This document shows, piece after piece, positions 10,957 to 19,729 of a DNA stretch of 23,276 nucleotides. Both the position numbers and the translations under genes were made by a program. The notes under the pieces are model-generated. The model was given only the letters and a program-made list of their open reading frames with translations, ran no database searches and was not told the DNA's origin. Location of the stretch: positions 1 through 23,276 of the IMG/VR virus record IMGVR_UViG_3300027836_000467; one strand, written 5' to 3'. This stretch comes from a virus. The first letter of the stretch is position 1. Each line of letters starts with the position of its first letter.

Positions 10957-11078
10957 TGAAGTTACTCAGGCATAGCCTTGCAATCTACACAGTATTTTTT
11001 ATCGGCGGTGCTGGCGCACTATGGATTCCCATACTTGGGTTGATAACAATTCTTTATTTTACAGGAGTAATCGGATGA
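10956..11078 (+). CDS. 40-aa membrane mini-protein
   Basis: MKLLRHSLAIYTVFFIGGAG then ALWIPILGLITILYFTGVIG: a positive N-terminus and two hydrophobic halves split by a Gly-rich turn, so either one long or two short membrane helices. Starts on the preceding stop (TAATG) and overlaps WhiB by 4 bases (ATGA). Third tiny membrane protein in this operon. Function unknown. Confidence 0.55.
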   Translation: MKLLRHSLAIYTVFFIGGAGALWIPILGLITILYFTGVIG

Positions 11079-11428
11079 CAATGAGAGACATTAGTTGGCA
11101 CGCAGAAGGTAATTGTTCAGGTCACCCAGACCCAGACCTATGGCACTATCAGAACAGTATGCACTCAGATGAACAGCAGTTGCAGGTACTACGTAGCGTT
11201 GAAGCAATCAGCCTATGTCGTATGTGTCCAGTCAAAGATAAGTGCTTAGAGGAAGGACTCAGAGATGAGAACATTCAATTCTGGGGTGGCAGTGGCACAA
11301 TCTGGGGTGGATTACTTACCTCAGAGCGGTATAAGTTGCGAGGCAACAGGGATAATGAGCAGATTGTGGAGGGTGAGCAACGCCATAGACGCAATGTTAC
11401 GGCGAAACTTGCTAAACTATACAGATGA
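11075..11428 (+). CDS. whiB: WhiB-family iron-sulfur transcription factor
   Basis: 117 aa from MTMRDISW; this ATG has AGGAG about 8 bases upstream, and the longer form from 11021 lies inside the previous gene. The Wbl signature is complete: C14, C48-x2-C51-x5-C57 to hold a [4Fe-4S] cluster, then GTIWGG (residues 74-79), the Wbl turn. The C-terminal part is basic (KLRGNR, RHRRNV) for DNA contact. In actinobacteria these proteins bind region 4 of the primary sigma factor and change promoter choice; phage copies are known to interfere with host WhiB proteins. It is the first gene here with a firm regulatory role and ties the phage to an actinobacterial host. Overlaps the muramidase gene by 4 bases. 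Confidence 0.93.
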   Translation: MTMRDISWHAEGNCSGHPDPDLWHYQNSMHSDEQQLQVLRSVEAISLCRMCPVKDKCLEEGLRDENIQFWGGSGTIWGGLLTSERYKLRGNRDNEQIVEGEQRHRRNVTAKLAKLYR

Positions 11429-14101: not shown

Positions 14102-14476
14102 TCACGCTCCGCTTCCGTCGTCATTGGTTTCCTCTTCTAATAGTTTGGCTAAGTTCTGGTCAAAGTCTTGCAACGCTGACTTGACTACCATATCCTCAAC
14201 CAGTTCATCTACTAGTTCGTAACCGTTCTCACTAGCAAATAGTGTAACATAAGTAGACTGCGTGATGAGTTTAATCTGGTCTGGTTCGTCAGCGTGGTTA
14301 AACATAAACCTCAGTAGTGAACCTAGTTTAAGTTTGAATCCATTGGGTAGTATGTAATACGGGTCGAACTCTTCGTCTTCCTCAAGGTAGTGGTCGACCA
14401 GTTCAAATGAATCCTCAAATGTAATGTGGCAATCGTGGCAATAGTTATGTGGTGGTGGTGTCTCTTCCTCTGCCAT
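14102..14476 (-). CDS. Acidic protein with N-terminal zinc knuckle
   Basis: 124 aa, strongly acidic. C13-x2-C16 followed by H28 about 12 residues later (CHDCHITFEDSFELVDHYLE) looks like the start of a C2H2-type finger, but the fourth ligand is not clear. The rest is helical (GSLLRFMFNHA, SALQDFDQNLAKLLEEE). Overlaps the primase stop by one base, so it is made together with primase and may be an accessory replication protein. No family name is certain. Confidence 0.75.
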   Translation of the reverse strand: MAEEETPPPHNYCHDCHITFEDSFELVDHYLEEDEEFDPYYILPNGFKLKLGSLLRFMFNHADEPDQIKLITQSTYVTLFASENGYELVDELVEDMVVKSALQDFDQNLAKLLEEETNDDGSGA

Positions 14477-15099
14477 CAGATGTCAATGCCAATCTTTTCG
14501 AGAATGAATTCTCTGCCCTGTGACACGAAGACAGAGTTGACATCTTCGCCCTCCCCAAAGGATACAACTGTGACTGGTAGTTCCCTTGCGAGTGAGTTAG
14601 CGAACTCTCTTCCTGGCGTATCACCATCAGCAAATACGAATACGCGTTCAAAGTCTGCGAGTAGTCTGGTGTAGTGCTTCTTCCACGAGTTTGCGCCAGG
14701 TACACCAACGCAAGGAAAGCCCACGCACTTAGACATAGTAAGGGTATCCAGTTCACCTTCACAAACTCCTATCCAATCACCAGCACGTGATACATCAAGC
14801 ACGTTATACATACGTGTCTCTGCCCCAGTCATACCCATATACTTAGGTTCAACTGCAGGGTTAAGACTTCTAAATCTTAAGTCAACAACACCAGTCTTGG
14901 TGATGTAAGGGATTGATAAGCGTCCAGCGTATTGCTCGTGACCTGTATCAGGCTCCGCGACTACGCCTAATCGAGCCGACCGTGCTACCTCCAGGGGTAT
15001 GCCTCTGCTTGCTAGGTAGTCTTCTGCCAGATGAATACTTTCCGCGTACTTGAGTACTGACTTCCCCAGTAATTCCTTCTGCAAAACGCTTTGCTTCAT
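14476..15099 (-). CDS. DNA primase, TOPRIM catalytic part
   Basis: 207 aa. The TOPRIM fold of DnaG-type primases is clear: Glu114 in VCEGELD and Asp158/Asp160 in FADGD, the metal-binding residues for primer synthesis. Before it lies the RNA-polymerase-like subdomain (YLASRGI, RLGVV, GRLSIPY, LRFRSLNP). The zinc-binding domain is not in this ORF but in the overlapping ORF at 14948-15328, whose frame differs by one base. The ATG at 15099 has GAGGG about 11 bases before it and an in-frame stop three codons earlier, so separate initiation is plausible. See the finding on the split primase. Confidence 0.9.
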   Translation of the reverse strand: MKQSVLQKELLGKSVLKYAESIHLAEDYLASRGIPLEVARSARLGVVAEPDTGHEQYAGRLSIPYITKTGVVDLRFRSLNPAVEPKYMGMTGAETRMYNVLDVSRAGDWIGVCEGELDTLTMSKCVGFPCVGVPGANSWKKHYTRLLADFERVFVFADGDTPGREFANSLARELPVTVVSFGEGEDVNSVFVSQGREFILEKIGIDI

Positions 15100-15328
15100 T
15101 AAAGTTTAATCCCTCTTGTTGTGCGACGATTTGAATACTGTTTCCTTGTACTCCACAAGCGAAGCAGATGAAGATGTTCTTGTCCAAGTTTGCTGTTCCG
15201 CTTTGGTGTGAGTCACCGTGAAAGGGACACCTAAGATTAACTTGTCCGTGAGTACTGCGTAAGGAAGCCCCGTAGTGTTCAAGGATTCCCTTGATAGATG
15301 GCAAGTCGTTGTCAATTTTTATCACCAT
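14948..15328 (-). CDS. DNA primase, CHC2 zinc-finger part
   Basis: 126 aa. Zinc ligands C34, H37, C55 and C58 (RCPFHGDS ... FICFACGVQGN) define the template-recognition domain of DnaG primases; EGLNFNEAKRFAE follows as in intact primases. From about residue 90 on the sequence is basic and low complexity (SSGRRLPSKQRHTPGGS), resembling an interdomain linker, and its last 152 bases overlap the TOPRIM ORF in another frame. The two ORFs together equal one normal primase. The start overlaps the end of the upstream nuclease gene by 17 bases. Confidence 0.85.
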   Translation of the reverse strand: MVIKIDNDLPSIKGILEHYGASLRSTHGQVNLRCPFHGDSHQSGTANLDKNIFICFACGVQGNSIQIVAQQEGLNFNEAKRFAEGITGEVSTQVRGKYSSGRRLPSKQRHTPGGSTVGSIRRSRGA

Positions 15329-15656: not shown

Positions 15657-15863
15657 TTAGGATGCGCTCTTGTCCTTGTTGAGAATACGTACTGCCCACT
15701 CTAGTCCAGCGTTGAGTCCATCAGTCCACTCATCAGTGACTGGTACCTTGGCTGCTTGAATCTTTTCAACCAGTGCTGCTACTTCAGTCTTAAGACCTAG
15801 CAATACTAGCGCACGAACTTCTTGTGTTGTGTCGTCTTCTTCTTCTCTAATCACTTTATCCAC
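15657..15863 (-). CDS. Small helical protein in replication operon
   Basis: 68 aa, acidic N-terminus (IREEEDDT) and then two helices (VRALVLLGLKTEVAALVEKI and DGLNAGLEWAVRIL). Overlaps the helicase end by 8 bases and abuts the resolvase-like gene. Possibly a helicase or nuclease partner by position; no family recognised. Confidence 0.7.
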   Translation of the reverse strand: MDKVIREEEDDTTQEVRALVLLGLKTEVAALVEKIQAAKVPVTDEWTDGLNAGLEWAVRILNKDKSAS

Positions 15864-16641
15864 CGTTCTCTGGTATGTCGTCCATAAACATATACTCAGG
15901 ATTAAATGCTAACCACGCCATTAAGTTAGCGTTAGCATCAGCCCTTCCGTATCTGTTCTTAACTGGTGAGATAGCCATTGAGGTTCCCACTACACCTAGT
16001 GTACAGATAAGTGCAGGAATTTGCGCGACCTTACCTTGCAATGCAGAGCGTGGTTGCGTAGGGTTTCCTGGCACAGCCTCAGATGTATGGTGCAAGACAA
16101 TGATTGCTGCGTTAGTGATACGTGCTAGGAACTTTAACTCCTTCATCACCGCACGCATAGATGCGAACTCTTCACCACCATCTGTTGCAATGTCCATCAG
16201 GTTATCAATGAAGATAGCCTCAGGTGGACAACCCCATAGTTCCTCGAATGCTTCAACCTCTTCGTTGATATCCATAAGAGTAGGGCTAGATTCAAACGAC
16301 CACACAATGTGTGATGACTTCTGCAGTACAGCCTTAGTCCAGTCAGTATCTGTTTCCATTAGTCGCTCAACATCTGTCTGATTCTTACCGCTAATCATTG
16401 ATGCTAAGCGCATAGCCATAGTGTGTGAGTTGGTATCTGCTGAAATGTACAGAGTAGGAACTCTCATACGTAGGGCTAAAGCCAGTGCCAGAGTGGACTT
16501 TCCCACACCTGGAACACCAGCAAACATCGACACCTCAGAGCGTCGGCAAATAATCTTGTTGGTATTAAAGGTCTTGAATACTGGAGGTAAAGGTTCTCCG
16601 CCAATGTCCGAACGACCTACCGAACGGACAAGTGTTCTCAT
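15856..16641 (-). CDS. RecA-fold replicative helicase/ATPase (DnaB/RepA-like)
   Basis: 261 aa. Walker A GVPGVGKST (42-50), LYISADT after the second strand, Walker B AIFIDN (Asp146), sensor-like IIVLHH (181-185) and a KNRYG loop (228-232) are in the order of DnaB-type helicase motors. The protein equals only the C-terminal motor of DnaB; the N-terminal primase-binding domain is missing. With primase in the same operon it is the likely fork helicase, forming a ring on single-stranded DNA. A RecA-like recombinase or RepA-type loader is less likely. Its ATG overlaps the upstream mini-gene (ATGA), and a promoter and structured leader lie just before that gene. Confidence 0.85.
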   Translation of the reverse strand: MRTLVRSVGRSDIGGEPLPPVFKTFNTNKIICRRSEVSMFAGVPGVGKSTLALALALRMRVPTLYISADTNSHTMAMRLASMISGKNQTDVERLMETDTDWTKAVLQKSSHIVWSFESSPTLMDINEEVEAFEELWGCPPEAIFIDNLMDIATDGGEEFASMRAVMKELKFLARITNAAIIVLHHTSEAVPGNPTQPRSALQGKVAQIPALICTLGVVGTSMAISPVKNRYGRADANANLMAWLAFNPEYMFMDDIPENGG

Positions 16642-16879: not shown

Positions 16880-17275
16880 TTAGCCGTTCGTCGGAGCGCA
16901 CTGTTCCGCGCCCTGAGGTTGTGGACATACCCACATTGAGTAAGGCTTGCCGTTCTTCTTCGAGATTCCCGATAGGAACTTGCGGTTGCCGTGAACGCAG
17001 GTCGGTGACGATAGACCCGTAGCGGATGGAGCCGCTTGCGGGGCGGGTGCGGAGGTAGCCCAAGGCGGATTGTCTACTGTTGAAGTAGTGGTCGCCAAAG
17101 GGGATACGTTGTATGCACCCGCAATCATCTTCTGTGTTGCTGCAATTTGTGTTGAGTAATCAGAGATTCCCTCTAGCAATACGCTGAGTTCATCTGAAGT
17201 GTTAGCGCGGATATTGATTAGGTCACCGACAGGTGTCTTAATTGATACCTGTAACTTCCAGTTTTCTTCTGACAT
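16880..17275 (-). CDS. Zinc-binding protein beside the exonuclease
   Basis: 131 aa. Residues 1-55 form a small mixed domain (WKLQVSIKTPVGDLINIRA, then a helix to about residue 54). Residues 56-92 are a Pro/Ala/Thr/Ser linker. The end carries C93-x-H95 ... C117 ... C126 with KFLSGISKKNGKPYSMWVC between, a probable zinc ribbon. Its start touches the stop of the nuclease C-part. A neighbour of this kind often accompanies actinophage Cas4-type exonucleases and may bind single-stranded DNA or tether the nuclease; that is inference. Confidence 0.75.
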   Translation of the reverse strand: MSEENWKLQVSIKTPVGDLINIRANTSDELSVLLEGISDYSTQIAATQKMIAGAYNVSPLATTTSTVDNPPWATSAPAPQAAPSATGLSSPTCVHGNRKFLSGISKKNGKPYSMWVCPQPQGAEQCAPTNG

Positions 17276-17889
17276 TATTTATTTTCCTTCTTCGTAAATT
17301 GGCAGTGTTCTGTGAGTCCACAGAAACTACACGATTGTAGGTTCGGTAGAAATATACCAGCCTTTCGTGCTTTGTCAAAGCCATCAACAAAATACTCCAG
17401 CGTGTCTTTGGTATATCTACTTAGGTCAATCATCTCTCCTGTCCCCGACTCACGAGACATCCAGTAGTTTCCTAGATTGACTTCCACTCCTAACATCATC
17501 TCGACTCCTACTTTGTAGAAGCCTAGTTGAAGGTCAGACTGTGGACGTGCGCGAGAAGTCTTCAAGTCGACGATAACAAGTTTACCGTTGACCTCGAAGA
17601 TTCTGTCAATGAACATCTTCACTGGTACACCAGCAATGATGGGGTTGAGTTCCAACTCGATAGCCTTTGCACCCTGTGGGGTAGTCCAGATTTTCCAGTC
17701 AGGATTATTCTTGCGCCAAATGATGTAGTCATCTACCCACTTGGAACCTTGTTCGTACCACCAAGTACCATCTTCCTTATTAGGGTTAGCCTTGGTTGCT
17801 CTTCCTGCTACTCGTGCCTTAGAGAAGTCAAGTCCGTCAATCTCCTTGAGCCAAGCATCGTGCCAGTATGTATTAACAGTCGTTGACAT
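17275..17889 (-). CDS. Cas4/RecB-like Fe-S nuclease, C-terminal part
   Basis: 204 aa from MSTTVNTYW; the longer form starts at a TTG and is less likely. PD-(D/E)XK core: FID95R, then VIVD108-L-K110-TS and QLGFY (121-125), the RecB/Cas4 motifs II-IV. The end has C187-x2-C190-x5-C196, three of the four cysteines of the Fe-S cluster of AddB/Cas4-type nucleases. The N-terminal motif with the first cysteine and the His of motif I is missing here but present in the separate ORF at 18845-19036. Expected role: 5'-3' end resection for recombination and replication, or host DNA degradation. It overlaps the 218-aa gene by 17 bases. Confidence 0.88.
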   Translation of the reverse strand: MSTTVNTYWHDAWLKEIDGLDFSKARVAGRATKANPNKEDGTWWYEQGSKWVDDYIIWRKNNPDWKIWTTPQGAKAIELELNPIIAGVPVKMFIDRIFEVNGKLVIVDLKTSRARPQSDLQLGFYKVGVEMMLGVEVNLGNYWMSRESGTGEMIDLSRYTKDTLEYFVDGFDKARKAGIFLPNLQSCSFCGLTEHCQFTKKENK

Positions 17890-18529
17890 TGTATATTCCA
17901 CTTCTTCCTTCAAGAGTAAAAGTTACTCCAGTAGGTCCTGGCATTTCAGATGCAATCTTCTTGCGCCAAAATCCTGGTGCTTGTTGAAGGTATCCTTCTT
18001 TGGCTAGGAACTCTTGCTGCAATGCAAAGCGTCCACGATAGTCAATAACCTGTGCACGTAAACGTTCCAACTCAGCCATATGTTCTTTATTCTGAGCCTT
18101 AAGTGATTCAACTTCACGCTTGAGTATGGAGTTTGTATAAGTCAAAGATGATAATTCTTGAACCTTAGCCTGAGACTCTACCCAAGCGCCAAGTGTCTCA
18201 TCAAGTTGAGCCTTCAATGTTTCAGTTGTCTCTTCTTGTTTACCCGTCTTTGGATTAGTTCTAAAGAGTATACCTTGGGCGGTAGAAAGAAAACCAACTT
18301 TAGATGGTAAGTCTTTAGGCTCAAAATGTAATGTCTCAATAGCACTACGCAGTTGAGTCATATCTGTCAATGGTATCCAGTCTTCTTGCCAGATTCCATC
18401 GCAAGAACAACCGCTTCCATAGCGGAAGTAGTACTTATTTTCGTACTCACCTAGTTGAGCAGATGACCATTCGTAATATCCGCCAGACCAGTCGTACTCT
18501 TCGATTACTTTGATGTCGTCATCATCCAT
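17873..18529 (-). CDS. Coiled-coil protein between the two nuclease parts
   Basis: 218 aa, CAGGAG ribosome site. Residues 1-55 are acidic and aromatic with two close cysteines (GSGCSCDGIWQEDWIPL). Residues about 100-175 are a long coiled coil (LKAQLDETLGAWVESQAKVQ ... LEAQNK/HMAELERLRAQVI). The rest is a small C-terminal domain. No endonuclease, intein or recombinase motif, so it does not look like a self-mobile insert. Its W-rich N-terminus recalls small sugar- or protein-binding modules, but no family is claimed. It overlaps genes on both sides. Confidence 0.78.
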   Translation of the reverse strand: MDDDDIKVIEEYDWSGGYYEWSSAQLGEYENKYYFRYGSGCSCDGIWQEDWIPLTDMTQLRSAIETLHFEPKDLPSKVGFLSTAQGILFRTNPKTGKQEETTETLKAQLDETLGAWVESQAKVQELSSLTYTNSILKREVESLKAQNKEHMAELERLRAQVIDYRGRFALQQEFLAKEGYLQQAPGFWRKKIASEMPGPTGVTFTLEGRSGIYNVNDC

Positions 18530-18845
18530 TGCAACTCCTGTTCAATGCTCCGCTAATAATTCTTTCAAGAACGCCAACTTGTGCCTCAAGTTTACTGCAT
18601 TGCTTGTCAGAATTCTCGTACTTATCTTTCCAGAATTTAACTTGACCTTCCAAGTCCTCAGGTTCTGGTTGACCATACATAGTGCTCGCACGAAGTGCAT
18701 CGTTTACAATTGTGGTGTAGCCATACTTTATTGGATTGACAGTAATGAACTCTGCCTTTGGTGCTGATGACTTGGCGGTCGTTTTGCCTTTTCTGGTTAC
18801 TTTAGATTTCTTGTTTTTCAAAACAGAATTAACTTGCGCTGCCAT
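18522..18845 (-). CDS. Basic-to-coiled-coil hypothetical protein
   Basis: 107 aa. Residues 1-30 are very basic (LKNKKSKVTRKGKTTAKSS), suited to DNA or RNA binding; a short globular part follows (FITVNPIKYGYTTIVNDALR) and residues about 65-100 form a coiled coil (QVKFWKDKYENSDKQCSKLE). The ATG lies on the stop of the nuclease N-part (TAATG), so both are translated together. Its coiled coil may pair with that of the next gene (inference). Confidence 0.75.
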   Translation of the reverse strand: MAAQVNSVLKNKKSKVTRKGKTTAKSSAPKAEFITVNPIKYGYTTIVNDALRASTMYGQPEPEDLEGQVKFWKDKYENSDKQCSKLEAQVGVLERIISGALNRSCNG

Positions 18846-19036
18846 TAGTTCTCACACTCCAAGTCATAAGTCTCTGCTGCTAAGTGGAAAGCCCGTCCTC
18901 CTGCTGACCAGACTGATGGTTCTTCTGGGACCTTGAGTAATCTGCCAAGGTAATACTGATACCCACAAGTGAGAAAAGTAGTGAAAGCACTATAACTAAT
19001 GTGCTCTGGTAGTTCATATGAATCTAGTTTAATCAT
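18845..19036 (-). CDS. Cas4/RecB-like Fe-S nuclease, detached N-terminal part
   Basis: 63 aa from MIKLDSYELP; this ATG overlaps the previous gene's stop, whereas the longer reading from 19060 lies inside that gene. ISYSAFTTFLTC24GYQYYL is the N-terminal helix and first cluster cysteine of AddB/Cas4-type nucleases, and WSAGGRAFH51LAAETYD is nuclease motif I with its His. In intact relatives this runs straight into a segment like the start of the 204-aa ORF at 17275-17889. Here a stop codon ends it, and two other genes lie between. It could work as one subunit of a two-chain nuclease or be a decayed half. Confidence 0.8.
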   Translation of the reverse strand: MIKLDSYELPEHISYSAFTTFLTCGYQYYLGRLLKVPEEPSVWSAGGRAFHLAAETYDLECEN

Positions 19037-19279: not shown

Positions 19280-19729
19280 CTATCTACTCCTATAGTATTT
19301 CATACTCTGGTCTTTTCTGCAACCTCGACACTCTCGGCTTATCCTACCGTCTTTCTTTTTCCTGTCGACGTATCCCCACGTGGCTAGGCTATGACCATTC
19401 TTGCAACTGCCGTTGCTCCAGTCACGTGCCTGTGTAATTGTATTGTCGCCAGTATGGTGACGCGTTGTATTAATGTTAGCAGGTACTGGGTCTAGGTGAT
19501 ATGGGTTGACGCACCACTTGTTGCGACATAGATGGTCAAGGGTTAGACCCTCTGGAATCTCAGCAATAAAGTATTCATATGCCCAGCGATGTGCTCTCCA
19601 TCTATAACCATCAGGTCGACGAAGATTAAACCTTGCATAACCTTTGACAGTTAATGTGCCAGTCCACTTCCAACAATCATCTTGTTGAATAATTCTTTCA
19701 AAGAAATAATTTATTTCTTTTGTATTCAT
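19280..19729 (-). CDS. HNH endonuclease with second zinc site
   Basis: 149 aa, GGAGG ribosome site 7 bases before the ATG. RAHRWAYEYF then GLTLDH66LC68RNKWC73VNPYHLDPV is a clear His-Me finger (HNH) core: general-base His66, Asn75, His78 plus structural cysteines. The C-terminal part adds C109-x3-H113 ... C134-x2-C137, a second zinc finger typical of phage HNH nickases. It is the first gene of the leftward replication operon. It may be a free-standing homing endonuclease or an enzyme in DNA processing; free-standing HNH genes next to a broken gene can be a sign of past invasion (see findings). Confidence 0.9.
   Translation of the reverse strand: MNTKEINYFFERIIQQDDCWKWTGTLTVKGYARFNLRRPDGYRWRAHRWAYEYFIAEIPEGLTLDHLCRNKWCVNPYHLDPVPANINTTRHHTGDNTITQARDWSNGSCKNGHSLATWGYVDRKKKDGRISRECRGCRKDQSMKYYRSR

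Follow-up and report, generated by a model that had tools for sequence, protein, structure and literature searches.

A probable Cas4/AddB-type nuclease encoded in two chains, with its proposed cluster cysteines distributed over both, in a broad clade of phages

The viral DNA investigated in this study, to which we refer as the window, comprises 23,276 nucleotides (IMG/VR record IMGVR_UViG_3300027836_000467) and contains on its minus strand two ORFs of 63 and 204 residues, in which a sequence-only reading had recognized the separated parts of an Fe-S nuclease. Both ORFs are present as described (Table 1), the residue numbers assigned to C24, H51, C187, C190 and C196 are correct in translation, and the proposed coupling to adjacent genes is reflected in overlaps of a few bases between either ORF and its neighbours. 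The distance between them, which had been given as about 950 bases containing two unrelated genes, amounts to 955 bases from the stop codon of the small ORF to the ATG of the large one, with the latter extending to 212 residues if started at an in-frame upstream TTG.

Table 1. Positions of the two nuclease ORFs, of residues contained in them and of surrounding genes in the window
Feature	Position	Strand	Description
Small chain, 63 aa	18845..19036	-	N-terminal nuclease part with Cys24 and motif I His51
Cys24 codon	18965-18967	-	Small chain
His51 codon	18884-18886	-	Small chain
Inserted gene, 107 aa	18522..18845	-	Below cut-off for all families; L005-L008 have relatives at this position
Second inserted gene, 218 aa	17873..18529	-	Coiled-coil-like by prediction; N-terminus weakly matches DUF7574, below threshold
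Large chain, 204 aa	17275..17889	-	Core of D95, D108-x-K110, Q121 and Y125; Cys187, Cys190, Cys196
Codons of proposed cluster ligands	17302..17331	-	Cys196 17302-17304, Cys190 17320-17322, Cys187 17329-17331; from sequence and alignment to one-chain orthologues
L5/D29 gene 49-like protein	16880..17275	-	phrog_364; adjoins the nuclease in relatives inspected
DnaB-like replicative helicase	15856..16641	-	phrog_243, 2.2e-72; gene order as in cultured actinophages
DnaG-type primase, two ORFs	14476-15099 and 14948-15328	-	CHC2 zinc ribbon (PF01807, 3.5e-13) and Toprim (PF13155, phrog_849)
HNH endonuclease	19280-19729	-	phrog_826, 2.7e-38; just upstream of the small chain
WhiB-family protein	11021-11428	+	PF02467, 7.9e-9

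The relationship of both ORFs to nucleases is evident in a profile search, which the sequence-only reading had proposed as a check and where both exceed the gathering score of the Pfam family PDDEXK_1 while matching consecutive parts of the model (positions 1-49 of 247 in case of the small ORF, E 1.9e-7, and 76-247 of 247 in case of the large ORF, E 2.5e-7). Both carry the label of a phage exonuclease in PHROGs, and the large chain matches the profiles of Cas_Cas4 (7.5e-5) and of the exonuclease family phrog_1870 (E 6e-38). Since both ORFs are found above the PDDEXK_1 cut-off and phrog_1870 is matched in addition, a chance resemblance to a nuclease is excluded. The profile of this Cas4/AddB-type family is thus covered over its length, but by two chains. 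Within these chains, the core consisting of the motif I His, Asp, Asp-x-Lys and Gln is complete (H51, D95, D108, K110 and Q121), and the arrangement of one N-terminal and three C-terminal cysteines that characterizes Fe-S nucleases is found in C24 on one side and in C187, C190 and C196 on the other, which, based on their alignment, we propose to constitute three of the four cluster ligands. In AddB and Cas4, cysteines in this one-plus-three arrangement hold an iron-sulfur cluster that is needed for stability (PMC3466216). By profile, residues and fold, the encoded protein is thus a member of the PD-(D/E)XK family of the Cas4/AddB type, but, whereas in AddB, AdnA, Cas4 and Dna2 all four cysteines usually reside on the same chain, they are distributed over two chains in 307 loci identified in this work.

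An intact version of the gene, for which the sequence-only reading had pointed to related phages, is found at the same place in cultured actinophages, where it precedes the gene of a DnaB-like helicase by a few genes, as it does in the window. This one-chain protein, annotated as 'Cas4 family exonuclease' of actinobacteriophages (phrog_1870, phrog_69), is identified as an orthologue by its gene order, its alignment over the full length and its key residues, and it contains all four cysteines in a single polypeptide of about 260-315 residues (Rhodococcus phage Jester gp55, 269 aa; Mycobacterium phage Sheen gp72, 265 aa; GaugeLDP gp69, 270 aa; DrParker, 315 aa; Ponzi gp36, 259 aa), in contrast to the two chains described here. 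In an alignment to the one-chain proteins, the two ORFs jointly span the entire protein, with the four cysteines, the motif His, both Asp, the Lys and the Gln placed in register, and the break is located after the motif I helix, in a stretch that is longer and variable in the one-chain relatives. We thus envisage a cut in the loop following the motif I helix of an ancestral one-chain gene, which would still be present in phages of Mycobacterium, Rhodococcus, Cutibacterium and Streptomyces. Two very distant relatives likewise show a split, where the parts are separated by other sequence (L353:2483-3543 and L342:1871-3148), and these may constitute independent splits of the same nuclease.

The division into two chains is widespread. 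Whereas the first 154 close-relative loci containing both parts are split without exception (154/154), wider searches combined with profiles of both halves provided 378 related loci, of which 307 are split, 64 encode a single chain in one frame and seven end at the edge of the contig before the small half would be reached. The large half was in none of the 378 loci found alone inside a contig. As some loci share a contig, the 307 split loci correspond to 185 distinct large-chain sequences. Among these 185 distinct pairs, all key residues are kept wherever they are covered by the contig, except for a single case at Tyr125, which is less critical, and the Nei-Gojobori dN/dS is below 0.2 in both halves for every computable pair, including the lineages with inserted genes. 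Both halves are under purifying selection. Split reading frames are often pseudogenes and the records are mostly metagenomic, which would be compatible with a decaying gene or with an error in assembly or sequencing. However, the recurrence of this split among 185 distinct sequences, the low dN/dS, the retained key residues and the presence in two sequenced isolates have led us to reject this explanation, to which we attribute hardly any probability, and they bear out the earlier argument against simple decay. A complete second copy of the nuclease, which would have offered another account of the fragments, was found neither in the window nor in 15 relatives of about 38-45 kb, which are not certified complete, making an additional copy unlikely; in these relatives, PDDEXK_1 matches are confined to the two halves. 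In one of them the pair is present twice, which we read as redundancy of the contig ends. A scan of genome contigs did not reveal bacterial relatives of the large chain of the window.

The pair is also found in cultured phages. It is carried by two INPHARED records (OX376640 and OX376641), which correspond to LanE43-AprE7 and LanE43-AprF5, lytic phages isolated on the freshwater bacterium 'Ca. Planktophila' (PMC10202952), and in both a 61-residue ORF overlaps a 202-residue ORF by 17 nt in a different frame. Since these are isolates, the split form is present in working lytic phages. The records are listed as 'Caudovirales sp. ct2KA10' and are unannotated, and the word 'exonuclease' does not occur in the paper describing the phages (PMC10202952). 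The cultured members infect actinobacteria (PMC10202952). The window itself encodes a WhiB-family protein, a mark of actinophages that is found in all members of the E7/F5 family (PMC10202952).

The close apposition of the halves in most relatives, where they are directly adjacent and overlapping, with the start codon of the large chain mostly located within 20 nt of the stop codon of the small ORF, raises the question whether programmed ribosomal frameshifting would join both ORFs into one protein, in which case the split would be only apparent. Consistent with this possibility, the large ORF is in 131 of 177 adjacent distinct pairs found in the +1 frame relative to the small ORF with both overlapping. 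In the other 46 pairs, however, it is in the +2 frame, the relation switches inside supported clades (such as in L259 and L272), and a slippery sequence common to the junctions was not found. Moreover, in the window and in several other lineages, 200-950 bases containing other genes separate the halves, both of which are still conserved. Given a variable relation of the frames and the insertion of unrelated genes between both halves, a conserved frameshift cannot rejoin them, and we have thus rejected this explanation as very improbable. A different behaviour is displayed by the DnaG-type primase of the window, which is also contained in two ORFs. In this case, the Toprim frame is +1 relative to the zinc-ribbon frame and shares a long overlap with it throughout the loci compared (216/216), and the stretch GCAGAAGGAATTACTGGGG is strongly conserved near the junction. 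Since the relation between the frames is constant, unlike in the nuclease, we consider the split primase as a candidate for +1 programmed frameshifting.

The genes located between the halves of the window are restricted in their distribution. Of 158 close-relative loci, only L002, L003 and L165, which are copies of this lineage, encode the 218-residue protein. These three loci also contain the 107-residue family, which is otherwise limited to L005-L008. On the sequences compared, the gap of about 950 bases is thus particular to this lineage, whereas the split itself is clade-wide. The sequence-only reading had suggested that coiled-coil proteins encoded between the halves might hold the subunits together, a role that has found no support, since most relatives lack the inserted genes, which argues against a required clamp. 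Unrelated genes are found between the halves in several lineages, including members of the 107-residue family (in the window and L005-L008), ORFs of 71 residues (L114/L115) and 63 residues (L200) and, in the distant L353, an ORF of 87 residues. The junctions in L005-L008, L114/L115 and L200 point to a repeated uptake of small unrelated genes, each of which overlaps the adjacent stop and start codons. The arrangement is reminiscent of the 'genes in pieces' of T4-like phages, where the gene of an enzyme was cut in two with other genes in between upon insertion of a homing endonuclease. Here, a gene is likewise cut with other genes between its parts and an HNH endonuclease gene is located nearby, but, unlike in the T4-like phages, the split is found without insert in most relatives. 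No endonuclease family exceeded the cut-off among the inserted genes tested, and the assignment as a gene in pieces made by a homing endonuclease was thus rejected. The HNH gene upstream of the small chain is, among the 158 close-relative loci, listed only in copies of this lineage. Similarly, a known intron or another RNA in the insert was rejected, as the sole match of an Rfam scan is sub-threshold, chance-like and located outside the insert.

A natural fusion offers a view of the protein in one piece. In the relative L229, which is represented by a single contig, the nuclease consists of one protein of 253 residues, whose junction equals that of the split relative L068 minus 16 nt. L229 is nested within the split clade in a codon tree (support 98/99), and in an AU test on the protein tree a split group excluding L229 is not rejected. 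It lacks a Tyr-Asp that is kept by one-chain outgroups such as L322 and by the small chains. The fusion apparently is secondary and arose by a 16-nt deletion, an origin suggesting that both chains function as a single unit. L229 was modelled by AlphaFold2 with high confidence (pLDDT 91.6, pTM 0.87). In this model, the junction region lies between helices 42-56 and 60-68, and the fold is that of the PD-(D/E)XK family, with matches over 181-228 residues to AdnA (Z 16.4), ACE1 (15.2), AddB (14.0), Cas4 (12.4) and Dna2 (12.0). In a comparison to solved structures by sequence, the profile of the family identified AdnA (E 5e-13), whereas L229 alone provided no match. The large chain of the window modelled on its own shows a pLDDT of 70.5, which decreases to about 40 in the region of the cysteines, in a calculation based on a shallower alignment than for L229. 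The poorer model would fit a requirement for the small chain, and the shallower alignment could also explain it.

The resemblance to AdnA is relevant for another explanation, according to which the chains would no longer form one nuclease and either or both would function independently or target an enzyme of the host, for instance as mimics of one subunit in an AdnAB- or AddAB-like host complex. The best match by both fold and sequence among solved structures is the mycobacterial AdnA, and actinobacteria are the hosts of the cultured phages, in line with this proposal. In contrast, the retention of all catalytic and cluster residues, which are spread over both chains, the continued linkage of the two genes and their fusion in L229 make it unlikely. 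We instead consider it highly probable that both ORFs contribute a subunit to the same PD-(D/E)XK nuclease, which is of the Cas4/AddB/AdnA type and whose complex and activity are predicted from these features. This idea, already contained in the sequence-only reading, has withstood the observations by which it could have failed, namely a second complete copy, the loss of key residues in relatives and an assembly error, latter being countered by the same arrangement in hundreds of contigs and two sequenced isolates, and only the clamp by the proteins encoded in between had to be abandoned. With somewhat better than even confidence, we propose further that the pair is an obligate heterodimer, where a chain of about 62 residues provides one and a chain of about 204 residues three of the cysteines that hold a [4Fe-4S] cluster and where the active site is completed only by the His of the small chain, and that this holds in a broad phage clade including cultured members.

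In such a mechanism, the small chain would contribute one cluster cysteine and the motif I His, and the large chain the acidic/Lys core and three cysteines, with the consequence that metal staple and active site would each form across the chain interface. Since the genes overlap in most relatives, the chains probably associate co-translationally into the presumed physical complex. The cluster would then tie the chains together, while the His of the small chain would complete the active site of the large one, and the assembly of the cluster across the interface might be the step that activates the enzyme. A staple between chains is the simplest reading, because residues that bind the cluster in AddB and Cas4 here reside on two chains. 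As sequence cannot tell iron from zinc, and zinc is described for a related nuclease (PMC3466216), we infer the bound metal, presumably a [4Fe-4S] cluster as opposed to zinc, in the same way as the nuclease activity and its polarity. The biological role would most likely be on DNA ends in phage replication or recombination, which we infer because the neighbouring genes encode a DnaB-like helicase and a primase.

The proposed enzyme differs from each of its known counterparts. The best fold matches, AdnA of the mycobacterial AdnAB and AddB of the Bacillus AddAB, show the same one-plus-three pattern of cysteines, but in these the nuclease forms a domain within a large helicase-nuclease chain, whereas here it is free and consists of two chains. 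Cas4, including solo Cas4 of mobile genetic elements such as SSO0001, and the Argonaute-associated ACE1 share the fold (Z 11.2 to 15.2), the four cysteines and the RecB-type core; these are one-chain proteins, in contrast to the two chains described here, where no CRISPR or Argonaute genes were seen. The word 'split' is absent from a paper on the phylogenomics of Cas4 (PMC5704561), and no published split nuclease of the Cas4/AddB type was found in open-licence papers, although one may have been described elsewhere. We thus claim the placement of the four cysteines on two chains as a variation on known Fe-S nucleases.

If correct, our proposal would imply that a metal cluster regarded as a staple within one chain can be formed between two distinct proteins and that selection has kept this cross-chain cluster over a wide sequence divergence. 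It also carries the warning that gene callers and family searches will mistake such halves for fragments. Two cultured lytic phages of 'Ca. Planktophila', together with the natural fusion as control, make the two-chain reading testable now, and the naturally split nuclease would offer a system for asking why staple and active site were divided between two proteins and whether the cluster drives the assembly of the subunits.
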